DNA of 64,000 nt from Acidobacteriota bacterium (GTDB lineage: Bacteria; Acidobacteriota; Terriglobia; Acidiferrales; UBA7541): the NCBI GenBank assembly GCA_013289585.1, contig JABCZR010000005.1, positions 110,117-174,116 of the forward strand. Reading direction: 5' to 3'. The notes under the pieces are model-generated. The model searched no databases and was not told the DNA's origin. It saw only the letters and a program-made list of their open reading frames with translations. Each line of letters begins with the position of its first letter. Within the stretch, counting starts at the first letter, position 1. Below, piece by piece: positions 48,309 through 59,368 of this stretch. A program made the translations under genes and the position numbers.

Positions 48309-50279
48309 TTAGTCCTGCGCGGCCTCGGAGGTTTGGGAAAACAGTCCGTGCACCAGACCATGCGCCGAAGAGACTGGCGGAAGCAGCCGCGCGGAGTTCA
48401 GGATGAACGTCATTTCCGAAGAAACGTGTATGAATGCAGCCAGAAGCGGATTTAGAAATCCAAACGCGGCCAAGCCGACCCCGATGCTGTCAACGACCAG
48501 CGTCCCGACAAAGTTCTGCATGATCGTGCGACGGCACCGCCGGGCGATGGACAGAGTTTCGACAAGTTTCGAGAGATCATTGCCAATGAGAACGACGTTT
48601 GCGCTCTCTCGCGCAACGTCGGTACCAGCGCCCATCGCGACGCCAACCGTAGCCTTCATCAGAGCAGGAGCGTCATTGACTCCGTCGCCCACCATAACGA
48701 CGTTGTGGCGCGCCGCCGTGAGCCGGCTAACGAATGCAAGCTTGTCCTCGGGCAAGAGTTCAGCGGCAATCTCGTCCACGCCCAGTTTCCCTCCGATGTC
48801 CTCAGCCACAGCCTTGGAATCTCCCGTGAGAAGAACTGCCTTCAATCCCATTGATTTGAGGTCGCGTATCGCTTTCGTTGCCTCGGGCCGAAGCGTATCG
48901 GCGACCACCAGAGTTCCAAGGAACTTGCCTTCTTGGGCCACAAAAATCTCCGAATCCGTCTGCGAGGCTGTGATTGTTGGGATCGAAATACGATGCCCCT
49001 CAAGAAACACACGATTGCCGACGATGATTTCGATACCCTCACGAACCGCGACGATTCCTTTCCCAGGTGTGTAATCGAATCTTTTTGGTTCTTCGGCGGA
49101 GATGCCCATCTTTGACGCCTTCTTCAGAATTGCCTTGGCGACTGGATGCTCGGAACGTGATTCCGCCGTCACCGCCGCTTGCAGCAAGGAAGCAGCGAGA
49201 ATGTGGTCCGCGGGGCGAACGTCAACGACCTCGAGGGTGCCGTAGGTCAGAGTCCCCGTCTTATCCAGGAGAATCGTATCGATGTTAGCGAGCGCTTCGA
49301 GATATAGACCGCCCTTGATGATCGAGCCGAGTTGCGCGGAACGTCCAATCCCGCCAAGAATCGCCAAGGGGGTTCCCGCAGCGATCCCGCACGCACCGGC
49401 TACGATGACTACAGAAATTGTCGAACGCATATTGTGAGTGATCAGGAATGTGAGAGCAGCGGCTCCAAGTGCGAAGTAAACCAAATAGCCCGCAAGGCGG
49501 TCCGCGATTCCTTGAATGGGGGCACGCGACTTTTCCGCCCGTTCAACCGCGTCTATGATCTTGCCGAATGTAGTGTCACGCCCCATCCGATCTACCCGGA
49601 TTTCGAGCGCGCCGGACTGATTGATCGTTCCGGCATTGACTGACGTTCCCCTGATCTTTTCCGCAGGCATCGATTCACCCGTGATCGTTGCCTGATCGAC
49701 GAAAGAGTGGCCTCCGGCGACAACCCCATCTACTGGAATTCGTGTCCCCGGCTTCACGAGAACAATTTCACCTGGAGCGATTTCCGTCGTCTCGACGTCT
49801 TGCCAGGATTCGTTTCTACGCACCGTGGCGGTTGTGGGCAAGAGACCAACCAAGTGACGAATGGCCGCGCGGCCTCGCCCGACCGTAAGTCCTTCTAGGA
49901 TTTCGGCGACGAGAACAAAGAGAGTGATCACAAGTGCCGTGAAGATTTCACGGATCGCCAGGGCGGCAACGATGGCGATGGCCATGGAAAGCTCCATCGT
50001 CATGCGACGCTGAACGATGTTCTCGTACGCTTCGTGGAATATCGGGAAACCACCAACAATCGTACAAACGACTCCAATGCCCGTTATGTAAGGATTCCGC
50101 GCGCCGCCGAGAAACCAGATGGCTCCTGCCGCCGCAGCCACAAACAAGACGCGGTTGATCTCACGCCAATTCAAAGCATGCTCGTGACCGTCTTCATGGT
50201 CGGAATGATCTAATGAGAGCTTTTCGGCTTCGTCGGCATTCTTCGCAGTTTCGGCTTGTTTCAATTCCGCTTGGGTCAT
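48309..50279 (-). CDS. Heavy-metal P-type (P1B-like) ATPase with unusual metal-site motif
   Basis: This 656-residue pump has the full P-type core: DKTGTLT (phosphorylated Asp339), TGES (200-203), SEHPVAKAIL, and GDGVNDAPAL. The membrane metal motif, CPC in most P1B pumps, reads AGACGIAAGTP: first Cys to Gly295 and the invariant Pro to Ala296, with Cys297 kept. The N terminus lacks a heavy-metal-associated domain but is His-rich (HSDHEDGHEH, 25-34). It presumably exports a divalent metal from the cytoplasm. The adjacent RcnR-like sensor points to Ni or Co. Confidence 0.92.
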   Translation of the reverse strand: MTQAELKQAETAKNADEAEKLSLDHSDHEDGHEHALNWREINRVLFVAAAAGAIWFLGGARNPYITGIGVVCTIVGGFPIFHEAYENIVQRRMTMELSMAIAIVAALAIREIFTALVITLFVLVAEILEGLTVGRGRAAIRHLVGLLPTTATVRRNESWQDVETTEIAPGEIVLVKPGTRIPVDGVVAGGHSFVDQATITGESMPAEKIRGTSVNAGTINQSGALEIRVDRMGRDTTFGKIIDAVERAEKSRAPIQGIADRLAGYLVYFALGAAALTFLITHNMRSTISVVIVAGACGIAAGTPLAILGGIGRSAQLGSIIKGGLYLEALANIDTILLDKTGTLTYGTLEVVDVRPADHILAASLLQAAVTAESRSEHPVAKAILKKASKMGISAEEPKRFDYTPGKGIVAVREGIEIIVGNRVFLEGHRISIPTITASQTDSEIFVAQEGKFLGTLVVADTLRPEATKAIRDLKSMGLKAVLLTGDSKAVAEDIGGKLGVDEIAAELLPEDKLAFVSRLTAARHNVVMVGDGVNDAPALMKATVGVAMGAGTDVARESANVVLIGNDLSKLVETLSIARRCRRTIMQNFVGTLVVDSIGVGLAAFGFLNPLLAAFIHVSSEMTFILNSARLLPPVSSAHGLVHGLFSQTSEAAQD

Positions 50280-50321: not shown

Positions 50322-50600
50322 CTACTTTAGGTAGGTCCGTACTACGTCGATGAGCTCTTCGGCCGCTTTCACCTGTGGAGCGTTCTTGCCAGACTTTGGG
50401 TCGAGGACGTGGAATCGGATATGACCCTCCAGCACTTCCGCCATTAGGCCGTTCAAGGCACCACGACAGGCGGCCATGAGTTGAAGCACGCTGGAACATT
50501 CGTGCTCGCCGTCGAGCGCCCGTTCGATGGCTTCCACCTGTCCGCGAATGCGTCGAACGCGACTCAAGAGTTTGGCTTTGTCTTTTGTTGTGTGCGCCAT
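50322..50600 (-). CDS. CsoR/RcnR/FrmR-family metal-sensing repressor
   Basis: This 92-residue all-helical DUF156 protein shows the four-residue metal fingerprint His3, Cys35, His60, His64. This is the set known for the Ni/Co sensor RcnR, and differs from the Cys-His-Cys set of copper-sensing CsoR. The protein would bind DNA as a tetramer and be released when metal binds. It is the first gene of an operon with the P-type ATPase (42 bases downstream) and the [2Fe-2S] gene. A candidate operator lies just upstream. Confidence 0.93.
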   Translation of the reverse strand: MAHTTKDKAKLLSRVRRIRGQVEAIERALDGEHECSSVLQLMAACRGALNGLMAEVLEGHIRFHVLDPKSGKNAPQVKAAEELIDVVRTYLK

Positions 50601-56062: not shown

Positions 56063-56851
56063 ATGTTGAACGCACCGGACGCCAATTCAGGGGGCGGTCG
56101 GCAGCAGCAATTCGAGTTGTCGATCGGCTGTGTGCCCTTCCGGCTCCAAATGACCGACCCGCAACTTTACGACGCGGCATCGGTGCGCTACGCCGCGTTT
56201 ACGGGGGCGGGAGCGCAGCCCATCCACATTGCATTGAACAATTTTTCCATCGAGGAACGCGAGCCGGCCGAATTTGCCTATGAATTTGAAGGCGCGGTGC
56301 TGCGGGATAGTTCAAGCCAAACAAATTTTGACGGCGTTGGCAACGAGTACGCGCTGGATTCGCTGCTGCGCGTTCTGCTGAGCTGGAAGCTCGCGGGCCG
56401 CAGCGGTTTTCTTTTGCACGCCGCCACGGTCATTCGCCATGGAAAGGCCTACGTTTTCACGGGCAGATCGGGCGCAGGGAAGAGCACCATCGCCTCGCTG
56501 TCGCCGGAAGGAAGCGTGCTTACCGACGAGATATCGCTGCTGCGGCGCGAAAACGGGGAGTGGAGAGCGTACGGGACGCCTTTCTGGGGGGAATTTCGCG
56601 CGGCAGGGTCGAATACCAGCGCGCCGGTGAAAGGGATTTTCCGGCTGGTCCAGGCGTCAGAAAATCGAGTCGCGCTTCTTCGTCCGGTCGAGATGCTTCG
56701 CGCACTCTTGCCGAACGTATTGTTTTTTTCTGCCGAGTCCGAGGCCAACCGGCGGCTTCTGGGAATTCTCGCGCAGGCTGCTGAGGAAATTTCGAGTTAC
56801 GAGCTGGCGTTTCGCAAAGATCAAACGTTTTGGGAGGTTCTTCCCGAATGA
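56063..56851 (+). CDS. HPr-kinase-like ATPase of the RiPP cluster
   Basis: This 262-residue protein uses the ATG at 56063 (a TTG nine bases upstream is the alternative). The C-terminal half holds the HprK-like P-loop: LLHAATVIRHGKAYVFTGRS with Walker A GRSGAGKST at 134-142, then VLTDEISLLRRENGEWRAYG. The N-terminal half lacks the true HPr-kinase regulatory domain. HprK-related proteins of this size occur repeatedly in peptide-modification clusters with PqqD and a radical SAM enzyme; their exact job is unknown. It is coupled to the PqqD gene by an ATGA overlap. Confidence 0.85.
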   Translation: MLNAPDANSGGGRQQQFELSIGCVPFRLQMTDPQLYDAASVRYAAFTGAGAQPIHIALNNFSIEEREPAEFAYEFEGAVLRDSSSQTNFDGVGNEYALDSLLRVLLSWKLAGRSGFLLHAATVIRHGKAYVFTGRSGAGKSTIASLSPEGSVLTDEISLLRRENGEWRAYGTPFWGEFRAAGSNTSAPVKGIFRLVQASENRVALLRPVEMLRALLPNVLFFSAESEANRRLLGILAQAAEEISSYELAFRKDQTFWEVLPE

Positions 56852-57150
56852 CGAGCAAACCGTCCGCTTGCTGGCAGAAGAATCCCGCCTTGGCGTGGAG
56901 AGAAATCGACGAAGCGACAGTCATTATTTCACCGACGGACAGCGTGATGCATGAGCTGAACGACACGGGAAGCTTTCTCTGGAAAAATATTGATGGCCAG
57001 AGGTCGGCGGCGGAGCTGGCGGAGCTGCTTGCGGAAAGTTATGAGGTGACGCCGGACGTGGCGTTGAACGACACGCAAGCGCTGCTCGAAGAGATGTCTA
57101 CGCGGAAACTGGTGGTGCCGGTCTCGGCGTCCGGCGGAGAGTCACGTTGA
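56848..57150 (+). CDS. PqqD-like RiPP recognition element
   Basis: This 100-residue protein starts MTSKPSACWQKNPALAWREI. The PqqD pattern is seen in ATVIISPTDSVMHELNDTGS with FLWKNIDGQRSAAELAELL and YEVTPDVALNDTQALLEEMS. PqqD proteins are winged-helix carriers that bind the leader peptide and deliver it to the radical SAM enzyme. Overlaps of 4 bases at both ends tie it to the HprK-like and radical SAM genes. Confidence 0.92.
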   Translation: MTSKPSACWQKNPALAWREIDEATVIISPTDSVMHELNDTGSFLWKNIDGQRSAAELAELLAESYEVTPDVALNDTQALLEEMSTRKLVVPVSASGGESR

Positions 57151-58355
57151 GCACAAGCGCAGCAGCGGGCGCCACGCCCGTCATGGACCGGCTGATCTCG
57201 CGCACGGTGCTCCGGCACCAGCCGCTGAGCGTGCATTTCGATTTGACGTACCGTTGCAACGAACGCTGCGTGCACTGCTACCTGGATCACGAAGACCACG
57301 GCGAACTGACGACGGCCGAGTGCCTGGCGGTGATGAAGGAGTTGGCGAGCGCGGGGACGCTGTTTCTTACGTTCAGCGGCGGAGAGATTTTTCTTCGGCC
57401 GGACCTCTACGAGATTCTGGCGGAGGCGCGGCGCTTGCATTTCGACCTCAGCCTGAAGACCAACGCGCTACTGGTGACGGAAGAACGCGCGGCGCGGTTA
57501 CGCGAATATGGTGTGCGGCGCGTACAGATCAGCGTTTACAGCGACATTCCGGAAGTGCACGATGCAATTACAAAGGTTCCCGGGTCGCTGCAGCGGACGC
57601 TGGCGGCGATTCCGCTGCTGTTGGAACAAGGGTTGCAGGTAAAGCTGGCGTGTCCGCTGATGCGGGAGAATTTGCTGGCGTACCGCGGGGTGATGGCTTT
57701 AGCGGAAAAGCTGGGCGTTCCGTACGTATTGGACCTGACAATCACGCCGATGATGGACGGCAACGAAGCGCCGCTGGCGCATCGCATACCGGTTTCCTCG
57801 CTTCTGCCAGTGATGCAGGATCCCACGTTGCATGCGTGCAAACCGCAGCCGACTGCTGAAGCAACCCGTGCCAGGCAGGAGTTTCCGGCGGCGATCGGGA
57901 GTGCTGTTTCGAGCGGCATCGAGAATGCGGCGTACGAAGACTTGCCGTGCAGCGCGGGCCACAACAGCTGCTACATTTCGCCCTATGGCGATGTTTTTCC
58001 CTGCGTGCAATTGCCGCAAGCGGCTGGAAACCTGCGGCGCGAACGATTCAGCGATATCTGGTATCACGCGCCACAACTCGAGCGGCTCCGCGGGATTCGC
58101 GAGAGCCAGCTTCCGGTTTGTTCGCGATGCGAAATTCGCAGCTACTGCGAGCGATGCCCGGGGCTGGCGCTGATGGAAGGCGGAGACCTGCTGGGGGCTT
58201 ACGAGCGCGCGTGCGAACTAGCGGAGCAGAAAGCGCAACTGGCCGGTGTGGTTACACCCATCAGCGCGCTGCATAGAGAGCAAGCGGCATTCGCGATGCA
58301 GACAAATTCGAGGAATGAAATCGCTTCATTTGTTGCAAACTCTAGTTCAGACTGA
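57147..58355 (+). CDS. Radical SAM/SPASM peptide-modifying enzyme
   Basis: This 402-residue enzyme uses a TTG start inside the pqqD end. The radical SAM cluster motif is CNERCVHC (Cys37, 41, 44) and GGEIFLRPDL follows. A complete SPASM domain is present: CSAGHNSCYISPYGDVFPC and later CSRCEIRSYCERCPG with a final Cys in ERACELAEQ, enough for two auxiliary [4Fe-4S] clusters. Such enzymes install thioether, C-C or ether cross-links or other modifications on ribosomal peptides. The precursor gene follows 11 bases later. Confidence 0.94.
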   Translation: MSTSAAAGATPVMDRLISRTVLRHQPLSVHFDLTYRCNERCVHCYLDHEDHGELTTAECLAVMKELASAGTLFLTFSGGEIFLRPDLYEILAEARRLHFDLSLKTNALLVTEERAARLREYGVRRVQISVYSDIPEVHDAITKVPGSLQRTLAAIPLLLEQGLQVKLACPLMRENLLAYRGVMALAEKLGVPYVLDLTITPMMDGNEAPLAHRIPVSSLLPVMQDPTLHACKPQPTAEATRARQEFPAAIGSAVSSGIENAAYEDLPCSAGHNSCYISPYGDVFPCVQLPQAAGNLRRERFSDIWYHAPQLERLRGIRESQLPVCSRCEIRSYCERCPGLALMEGGDLLGAYERACELAEQKAQLAGVVTPISALHREQAAFAMQTNSRNEIASFVANSSSD

Positions 58356-58366
58356 GGGAACACGGA

Positions 58367-58537
58367 ATGGCTGACGATCAAAAAAGCTCTCCTCAAGCGC
58401 CTGGCGGAAGCGGCGGCAAGAAGCCATATACGAAGCCGAGCGTTGTTTCTGAACCGATATACGAGACGCTGGCGCTGGCGTGCGGCAAATTGCCGGGCCA
58501 GGGCGGAGTTTGCAACGGCGCTCCCCGACGGTCATAA
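58367..58537 (+). CDS. Candidate RiPP precursor peptide (56 residues)
   Basis: This short gene begins 11 bases after the radical SAM stop, with AGGGA (58355-58359) at seven bases from the ATG. The N-terminal half is polar and flexible (MADDQKSSPQAPGGSGGKK), as in a leader peptide. Next comes PYTKPSVVSEPIYETLALAC, and the C-terminal part contains Cys39 and Cys49 in ACGKLPGQGGVCN, a Gly-rich loop flanked by two cysteines. Size, position, ribosome-binding site and composition fit a substrate of the upstream enzyme. The cross-link type (thioether, disulfide, C-C) and cleavage site are not determined. The product class is not assigned. Confidence 0.82.
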   Translation: MADDQKSSPQAPGGSGGKKPYTKPSVVSEPIYETLALACGKLPGQGGVCNGAPRRS

Positions 58538-58819
58538 AAAAGTGCGGCGCGACAGCCCGAGAGGGCCATGGCGGAGGCTAACCGGCACAGTGAAGTGCTG
58601 TACTTTTGGGCAAACCGGGACTTGTGGTCCATTGACCGTTCCCACCTGAAACTCCACGCTTGTATTCAGAGGCGGTAACAGCTTTATATCCGAACCACTT
58701 CCTTTGTTGCTGCTGTTCGGAAAGGCCCCTACCAGGCGCATCTTGGATTCGAGATATGCGTGCAGTCGCGCGCTTGCGACTGGAAGGACCGCTTTTAGAG
58801 TTTTCGTCTTGAGGAATGG
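58538..58819. other. Unassigned stretch between precursor and peptidase genes
   Basis: I see no gene I can support in these 282 bases. A 36-codon plus-strand frame begins at 58568 and a 69-codon minus-strand frame ends at 58532; neither has a ribosome-binding site or family features. It could hold an untranslated region or a second, unrecognised small peptide. Confidence 0.4.
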
Positions 58820-59368
58820 ATGGAGAATCGGCAGGATCAGCGGAAGAAGTCGAACCGGCTCGGCGGTGAACGCCGGGCTGATGACGCGGCGCGCATTGCG
58901 GAAGCGTTGGCGAAGCGCGGCCACGTTTCCATGCGCGTTCATGGCACGAGCATGCTTCCGTGGGTGCGGCCGGGCAGCGTCGCCTTGATTCGGCAGACTT
59001 CGATCGAAAACGTGCGTTGCGGGGACATCGTCTTGTTCCGACGCGACACGCACCTCTTCGTACACCGTATTGTAGAAAAGCGGGGTTCCCTGGAGACCGC
59101 TCAACTCTTTTCCAAGGGCGATGCACATCCGACATCTGACGGCCCTATGGAACAAGGCCAATTGTTGGGCCGAGTGGTGCGAATTTACCGGGACGGAGAC
59201 GGAATAGACCTCGATGCGCCGGGCCAGCTGGCTTTGGGACTGCTTATTTCGAAACTCTCATTGCACAGCCGTTATTGGTATCCGATGGCAAAATTCGTGG
59301 CCATCGTGACCCGGCCGGTGCGCCGGTTGATGCATCCACGGCGTGTTTCCAACCTCGCGGTTCGCTGA
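58820..59368 (+). CDS. S24/S26-type signal-peptidase-like protease
   Basis: This 182-residue protein uses the ATG at 58820, four bases after GAGGA. The catalytic serine is Ser44 in MRVHGTSMLPWVRPGS. The general base appears to be His82 in LFVHRIV, so the dyad is Ser/His as in SipW/ER-type signal peptidases instead of Ser/Lys. KGDAHPTSD supplies the third conserved box. No N-terminal membrane anchor is seen; a weak hydrophobic stretch lies near 140-150. It probably removes the leader from the modified peptide, judged from position and family use. Confidence 0.85.
   Translation: MENRQDQRKKSNRLGGERRADDAARIAEALAKRGHVSMRVHGTSMLPWVRPGSVALIRQTSIENVRCGDIVLFRRDTHLFVHRIVEKRGSLETAQLFSKGDAHPTSDGPMEQGQLLGRVVRIYRDGDGIDLDAPGQLALGLLISKLSLHSRYWYPMAKFVAIVTRPVRRLMHPRRVSNLAVR

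Follow-up and report, generated by a model that had tools for sequence, protein, structure and literature searches.

A recurrent gene cassette of Acidobacteria combining a radical SAM/SPASM enzyme and an HprK-like protein with a two-cysteine peptide that ends in serine

The cassette described here lies in a 64,000-nucleotide stretch of an Acidobacteriota assembly (GCA_013289585.1, contig JABCZR010000005.1, positions 110,117 to 174,116), which we call the window, and consists of five genes for an HprK-like protein, a PqqD-family protein, a radical SAM/SPASM enzyme, a 56-residue peptide with two cysteines and an S24/S26 peptidase (Table 1). A prior reading of the letters alone (the sequence-only reading) had proposed a new gene cluster for a ribosomally synthesized and post-translationally modified peptide (RiPP), with four closely joined genes followed by a signal-peptidase-like gene. 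All five open reading frames (ORFs) were recovered at the place and on the strand given there. The HprK-like and PqqD genes overlap by ATGA (56848-56851), the PqqD and radical SAM genes by TTGA (57147-57150), and 11 bases (58356-58366) separate the radical SAM gene from the ATG of the peptide gene at 58367. The S26 gene starts 282 bases past the peptide gene, so that its coupling is the loosest in the cassette. The limits of the cassette are set by two flanking genes on the reverse strand, encoding a class V aminotransferase (Aminotran_5) and an RNB-domain ribonuclease. The 282-base gap (58538-58819) has blocks around CTGTA..TTT.GGCAA and ATTGACC in common with four close relatives; these perhaps represent a promoter or control element.

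Table 1. Coordinates of the features discussed, counted from the first base of the window
Feature	Coordinates	Strand	Residues, matches or basis
Five-gene cassette	56063-59368	+	Order: HprK-like, PqqD, radical SAM/SPASM, two-Cys peptide, S24/S26 peptidase
HprK/PEP carboxykinase-superfamily kinase-like protein, 262 aa; proposed C-terminal-Ser kinase	56063..56851	+	H119, K140, D155, E156
PqqD-family protein (discrete RiPP recognition element, RRE), 100 aa; proposed leader-binding subunit	56848..57150	+	PF05402 9.2e-18
Radical SAM/SPASM enzyme, 402 aa, TTG start	57147..58355	+	Radical_SAM 9.5e-24, SPASM 2.7e-11
Precursor peptide, 56 aa; gene including stop codon	58367..58537	+	
Predicted leader, residues 1-34, ending ..PYTKPSVVSEPIYET	58367..58468	+	YxxP motif of RRE-binding type; conservation and analogy to the leader and cut site of linear polyphosphorylated peptides
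Predicted core, LALACGKLPGQGGVCNGAPRRS	58469..58534	+	C39, K41, C49, C-terminal S56; predicted cut after T34
S24/S26 archaeal-type signal-peptidase-like protein, 182 aa; proposed leader peptidase	58820..59368	+	Triad S44/H82/D101 or D107
E1-E2 P-type ATPase	48312-50279	-	PF00122
92-aa ORF beside the ATPase gene	50322-50600		Resembles CsoR/FrmR-type metal regulators (by eye)

Profile searches bore out the PqqD and radical SAM/SPASM identities that had been proposed. The radical SAM protein carries the cluster motif CxxxCxxC (C37, C41, C44) and eight cysteines in its SPASM region (C268, C275, C286, C325, C328, C334, C337, C356), and these eleven positions are retained in 74-81 of 81 radical SAM proteins. 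Its best relative by sequence in the PDB is PqqE (6c8v), with SkfB as another. The top NCBIfam matches were the AhbD/NirJ models of heme b biosynthesis (143 of the 500 bits required), an assignment that was set aside because a peptide, an RRE and a peptidase accompany the enzyme; the GeoRSP and mycofactocin models scored far under their cut-offs. The S26 protein matched Peptidase_S24 (1.5e-8) and reached 52.0 bits against the archaeal-type signal peptidase model TIGR02228 (cut-off 51.85). Its earlier label as a Ser/His peptidase is right, since S44, H82, D101 and D107 are conserved in 76, 79, 78 and 77 of 79 homologues, respectively.

The HprK-like protein had no Pfam match above the cut-off, its HprK-related NCBIfam matches were sub-threshold (ScmC 45.3 of 125 bits, HprK_rel_A 35.8 of 200 bits), and a sequence search of the PDB returned only marginal matches to PEP carboxykinase and MsbA. 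Its AlphaFold model (predicted local distance difference test score, pLDDT, 90.3) matched PEP carboxykinase best (Z 14.5, root mean square deviation 3.9 A over 230 residues). HPr kinase was absent among the 50 matches listed in that comparison, and in the Foldseek list HPr kinase/phosphatase came no higher than rank 41 (E 1.8e-5, template modelling (TM) score 0.25-0.27). The modelled fold thus assigns the protein to the PEP carboxykinase/HPr-kinase superfamily, nearest to PEP carboxykinase. 'HprK-like' is used here in this superfamily sense, because PEP carboxykinases lead the fold matches and HPr kinase ranks lower. A lasso-kinase comparator sought among plasmids with the HprK protein gave three weak places in three records, which were not used.

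The occurrence of the cassette was followed in two collections: the best 80 of 95 radical SAM matches in a genome collection, which give the locus counts below, and 200 genomes of the window's class that are at least 90% complete, searched with E-value cut-offs of 1e-60 for the radical SAM protein, 1e-20 and 1e-15 for propeller proteins (see below) and 1e-3 for the peptide. The 80 loci come mostly from Acidobacteria, and also from Lysobacterales, Burkholderiales, Nevskia, Thermomonas and a Binatus record; the closest are metagenome-assembled genomes of Acidobacteria, with radical SAM proteins up to 89% identical. A conserved small gene, as the sequence-only reading required, does adjoin the homologous radical SAM genes: BLAST found the peptide in 68 of the 80 loci, and a motif scan added one more (L070). 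By BLAST the S26 peptidase is present in 69 loci and the HprK-like gene in 78, with peptide, peptidase and HprK-like gene together in 62. PqqD was found by BLAST alone in 47 of the 80; with an iterated profile, 80 of 81 loci, the window included, showed a PqqD-like ORF that precedes the radical SAM gene by no more than 700 bp. Within the class, the radical SAM gene occurs in 28 of the 200 genomes, and the peptide in 26 of these 28 vs 0 of the 172 without it. The sequence-only reading had suggested testing whether the five-gene order recurs; the set does recur, in two main orders. The window's clade has HprK-PqqD-rSAM-peptide-S26 (rSAM, radical SAM gene), and most of the other loci have peptide-S26-HprK-PqqD-rSAM. 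Some relatives carry further genes, namely an NTP_transf_5-like gene (33 of 80 loci) or an ABC-2 permease (19 of 80). This conservation marks the genes as a unit, most likely a RiPP cassette. As a separate observation, in genome G157 (C1:535764 and C3:280130; L147, L148) the HprK-PqqD-rSAM genes are on one contig and the peptide gene, with an ABC-ATPase-like ORF, on another.

Neither the window peptide nor its 51 aligned relatives matched any NCBIfam family, and the window peptide had no Pfam match. The alignment (A1: these relatives and the window, drawn from 62 kept peptides of 50-75 residues that end in Ser, from L028 upward plus L014 and L016) also served as the query for the peptide search of the 200 genomes. 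After a variable N terminus its majority sequence reads KKPYxKPxFRxExVFETxALxCGKxxxTQxxCxxxxKxS, and Y21, P24, L37, C39, K41 and C49 are invariant in all 52 peptides. As the rows of A1 were pre-filtered for a terminal Ser, its seemingly invariant S56 is no evidence; among 70 distinct peptides collected with no filter on the last residue, 69 end in Ser, and a further 13 new peptides include 12 with this terminus, vs a base rate of 33 in 465 mechanically chosen flank ORFs of at least 250 residues. The two exceptions (L053 and L137, the latter a second copy in G084) are probably degenerate, given that the Cys at the second position is also missing. In the 70 distinct peptides the spacing between the cysteines is 9 residues in 58, Gly-Lys directly follows the first Cys in 66, and the C-terminal position -3 is basic in most (K in 38, R in 17). 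The triplet before the proposed cut is FET in 44, YET in 16 (the window among them), FVT in 7, FEV in 2 and FVI in 1. The only Ser conserved throughout is the last residue. Peptide genes are present twice in L038, and L034 (7181-13090) holds tandem copies of the peptide, a large propeller-type protein and a secreted-looking protein of 160-167 residues.

The closest published parallels are two kinase-containing peptide systems. Linear polyphosphorylated peptides (LPPs) of Paenibacillus, published in May 2026 (PMC13381572), share with the cassette a discrete PqqD-like RRE, an archaeal-type signal peptidase I with Ser-His-Asp residues and a YxxP...FET leader, and their HprK-like kinase has a possible counterpart in the kinase-like protein here. 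In that system the peptidase depends on the RRE and cuts after a Thr at -1, and the kinase places one to four phosphates on Ser3 of the core; since the core begins AQS and the precursor motif is YxxPxVLxHQxIxFETxxS, this Thr can be read as the T of FET. LPP clusters were found in capsule loci, an NTP transferase was reported with them, and the authors could not identify their final product (PMC13381572). The present peptides retain YxxP and [F/Y]ET, and lack HQ and the Ser at +3. LPP C termini are variable, whereas two cysteines and a C-terminal Ser are conserved here; an NTP transferase and an MsbA-like exporter accompany LPPs and are not among the window's five genes; and LPP hosts are Bacillota, unlike the Acidobacteria and Pseudomonadota that carry this cassette. 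LPPs have no radical SAM enzyme (0 mentions in PMC13381572).

Paeninodin-type lasso peptides (PadeK/ThcoK/PsmN) likewise combine a YxxP-type RRE leader and a kinase with a conserved C-terminal Ser of the precursor. PadeK phosphorylates the side chain of that Ser before maturation, the Ser is 'extremely conserved' in clusters with a kinase of this kind, and a His-Lys-Asp-Asp motif is common to these kinases (PMC9266682); some of these clusters also include an NTP transferase (PMC9266682; PMC13381572). In place of the lasso cyclase and B2 protease, neither of which is among the five genes, the window has a radical SAM enzyme, and its kinase-like protein has H-K-D-E rather than the H-K-D-D described for the lasso kinases. 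The SynChlorMet families of NCBIfam (ScmC/D/E/F) also bring HprK-like, PqqD-like and radical SAM/SPASM proteins together, but the window proteins fall short of their cut-offs (31.9 of 100 and 107.8 of 400 bits, besides the ScmC score given above), and, to judge by the model names, that system has a pair of radical SAM genes where the cassette has one. Sactipeptide and ranthipeptide systems (AlbA, SkfB) resemble the cassette in having a SPASM enzyme with its cluster-ligand cysteines and a Cys-containing core, though the AlbA and SkfB cut-offs were not reached (77.8 of 850 and 55.3 of 300 bits); the two conserved core cysteines are compatible with the Cys-to-carbon thioethers of these systems. 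AlbA/SkfB-type enzymes have their own fused RRE and are not known to have a kinase partner. The cassette would work like an LPP/paeninodin module with an added radical SAM enzyme, and is a member of neither class as defined. The novelty claimed by the sequence-only reading accordingly narrows to the combination: with the radical SAM enzyme it was not found in a literature search, most subscription journals lying outside its reach, and the other four kinds of part make up the module published in 2026 (PMC13381572).

From these comparisons we consider the following pathway moderately probable. The PqqD protein, as an RRE, would bind the YxxPx[V/F] leader and present the peptide to the radical SAM/SPASM enzyme, which would alter the core, most likely by forming sactipeptide- or ranthipeptide-like thioethers from the two conserved cysteines to nearby carbons. 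The thioether appears the likeliest chemistry because of the two conserved cysteines and because 47 of the 70 peptides have no aromatic residue after Cys39, which disfavours an aromatic crosslink. By analogy with paeninodin, the HprK-like protein probably phosphorylates the side chain of the C-terminal Ser, a site predicted because Ser at +3 is absent and the last residue is the sole fully conserved Ser. The S26 peptidase would cut after Thr34 to release a 22-residue core, a position taken from the LPP peptidase, whose Thr at -1 is read as that of FET. In loci with an NTP_transf_5 gene nearby, the phosphate may receive a further group. The product would then leave the cell and may act with or on a large predicted-secreted beta-propeller protein.

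The proposed link between the terminal Ser and the kinase gene draws on a second cassette as well. When 61 genomes (the window's own and relatives) were searched with the radical SAM protein (E <= 1e-40), 19 gave matches, 13 with the window type (41-100% identity) and 6 with only a second type; one of the 13 has both. The window's genus thus harbours another radical SAM/PqqD/HprK cassette, family B (L021-L027, L154-L162), whose radical SAM protein is about 32% identical to the window type. Seven of its loci show a PqqD match upstream in 5 and an HprK-like gene downstream in all 7. The family-B peptide (..YEPPKVIRVSLRPEEAVLGHCK..C..C..GS, also given as ..PEEAVLGHCK..SC...C..GS), found in 9 of the 200 genomes and in two genera, has YxxP and Cys-Lys in common with the window peptide and is otherwise unlike it; 7 members of the family matched nothing in NCBIfam. 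All 9 peptides end in Ser with an HprK-like gene near each, so that the terminal Ser tracks the kinase gene in two peptide families.

Clustering of the proteins encoded around the cassettes drew out large proteins with hydrophobic N termini (12 inspected), six of which gave nothing in Pfam at E <= 0.1. Often such a gene ends a short way ahead of the peptide gene (3-358 bases between them in 19 loci). The beta-propeller fold is taken from a single model (pLDDT 78.7). Its 50 listed matches, all partial (TM 0.16-0.31 of the query), comprise among others WD40-type propellers, secreted YxaL, tetrathionate hydrolase and the BAM-complex chain 9mge_B. Near the window's clade another large protein with a propeller-like half lies between the peptide and S26 genes (L034, L036 and G036 = L151), the order in G036 being HprK-PqqD-rSAM-peptide-1129 aa-1170 aa-S26. 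One or other propeller type is present in 41 of the 80 loci and never in the same locus as the ABC-2 permease (0 of 80; Fisher 6e-8, phylogeny ignored). Acidobacteria, several Pseudomonadota and a Binatus record all provide loci with this pairing of cassette and propeller, and in Thermomonas flagellata SYSU G04041 (L076) a propeller gene adjoins the cassette.

In the 200 genomes either propeller type occurs in 24 of the 28 with the radical SAM gene vs 1 of the 172 without it; these searches scored at most 6 or at most 3 candidates per genome. The four in which no propeller was detected are G010, G007, G051 and G086. Read from the coordinates, both genes share a contig in 16 of the 24 co-occurring genomes, and they may for that reason travel together; without these 16 the ratio is 8 of 12 vs 1 of 172 (p 1.6e-10, phylogeny again ignored), where separate contigs of a draft do not prove distance. 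The window's genome is among these eight. Its 1085-residue secreted-looking protein is encoded on another contig (L146 8189-11446, reverse strand) and matches CBM96, DUF2341 and PQQ_2/BamB-type propellers (37.8 bits, cut-off 27.6), with relatives in 7 of the 200 genomes, all 7 having the cassette's radical SAM gene. A 229-residue ORF (L146 11443-12132, reverse strand) overlaps the start of this gene, and the ORFs around, read by eye, resemble polysaccharide synthesis genes, a setting comparable with the capsule loci of the LPP clusters (PMC13381572). In G034 a propeller gene lies beside a putative transposase (by eye), together with a family-B cassette, and several propeller proteins are spread over contigs C3, C6, C7 and C8 of G157.

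This association allows a reading of the product as a functional component of some extracellular protein, possible but tentative, in which a crosslinked, C-terminal-Ser-phosphorylated and perhaps glycosylated secreted peptide might bind, cap or anchor the large propeller protein. Quinohemoprotein amine dehydrogenase, which has a crosslinked small subunit, offers a comparison. It is likewise possible, if doubtful, that the product is an exported antimicrobial or signalling RiPP such as a sactipeptide-like bacteriocin, with the propellers only co-inherited neighbours. The ABC-2 transporter genes that adjoin some cassettes, the patchy distribution over 28 of 200 genomes and the shared contigs in 16 of 24 all fit such a product, whereas the off-contig co-occurrence of the propellers and the lack of an exporter among the window's five genes argue against it. 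The third possibility, that the peptide is the source of a redox or other cofactor for the propeller as PqqA is for PQQ, is quite improbable: a PqqD protein, a SPASM enzyme closest in sequence to PqqE among PDB entries and the PQQ_2/BamB-type match of the window genome's propeller are in its favour, but neither PqqC nor a dehydrogenase is among the five genes (the rest of the genome was not searched), most peptides lack an aromatic residue after Cys39 and BamB-type propellers are not known to need a cofactor.

Several observations weigh against the pathway outlined above. Neither BLAST nor the motif detected a peptide in 11 of the 80 loci; five of these have less than 2 kb upstream, and six (L039, L046, L054, L072, L077, L098) show none despite at least 3.8 kb. 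Two genomes with the radical SAM gene (G051 and G131) likewise yielded no peptide. At its distance of 282 bases the S26 gene could have its own promoter, and the step of export has no exporter among the window's five genes. With regard to the cut and phosphorylation sites, the window core lacks the Ser at +3 that is the LPP phosphosite, and the Pro and FET stand two residues closer together than they do in the LPP motif. Moreover, A, S or T precedes the first Cys in 67 of 70 peptides, and a cut before Cys39 would also suit a signal peptidase. Two further points concern the HprK-like protein, namely that its best fold matches are PEP carboxykinases and not HPr kinase, and that the fourth catalytic residue is Glu (E156) in 91 of 98 HprK-like proteins, Asp being confined to 7 of family B. 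The characterised HKDD motif is thus not present in full, because Glu holds its fourth position. Conservation of this Glu points to function, without saying which.

The PEP carboxykinase fold and the Glu also favour an alternative that we regard as unlikely, in which the same RiPP machinery operates and the HprK-like protein, instead of being a kinase for the C-terminal Ser, serves as an ATP-dependent scaffold or acts on another residue. The terminal Ser would then be kept for recognition or carboxylate attachment, and the basic residue common at -3 would serve recognition equally. Yet of the 98 proteins 97 keep H119 and all 98 keep both K140 and D155, and Glu is a conservative metal ligand. 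Family B, with Asp in the fourth position, has the same terminal Ser. The superfamily fold and the retained H, K and D favour phosphorylation of the terminal Ser, the more probable role of the protein.

Two aspects are new here. A terminal Ser is found in two HprK-linked peptide families, pointing by analogy to C-terminal Ser phosphorylation as in paeninodin, and a large secreted-looking beta-propeller protein accompanies the cassette, even where the two are unlinked. The cassette would unite radical SAM peptide chemistry with the kinase/signal-peptidase module known from lasso peptides and LPPs, and it yields a sharp, site-specific prediction, a phosphate on the last Ser. Its genomic coupling to a large predicted-secreted propeller provides a testable lead on the purpose of such peptides.

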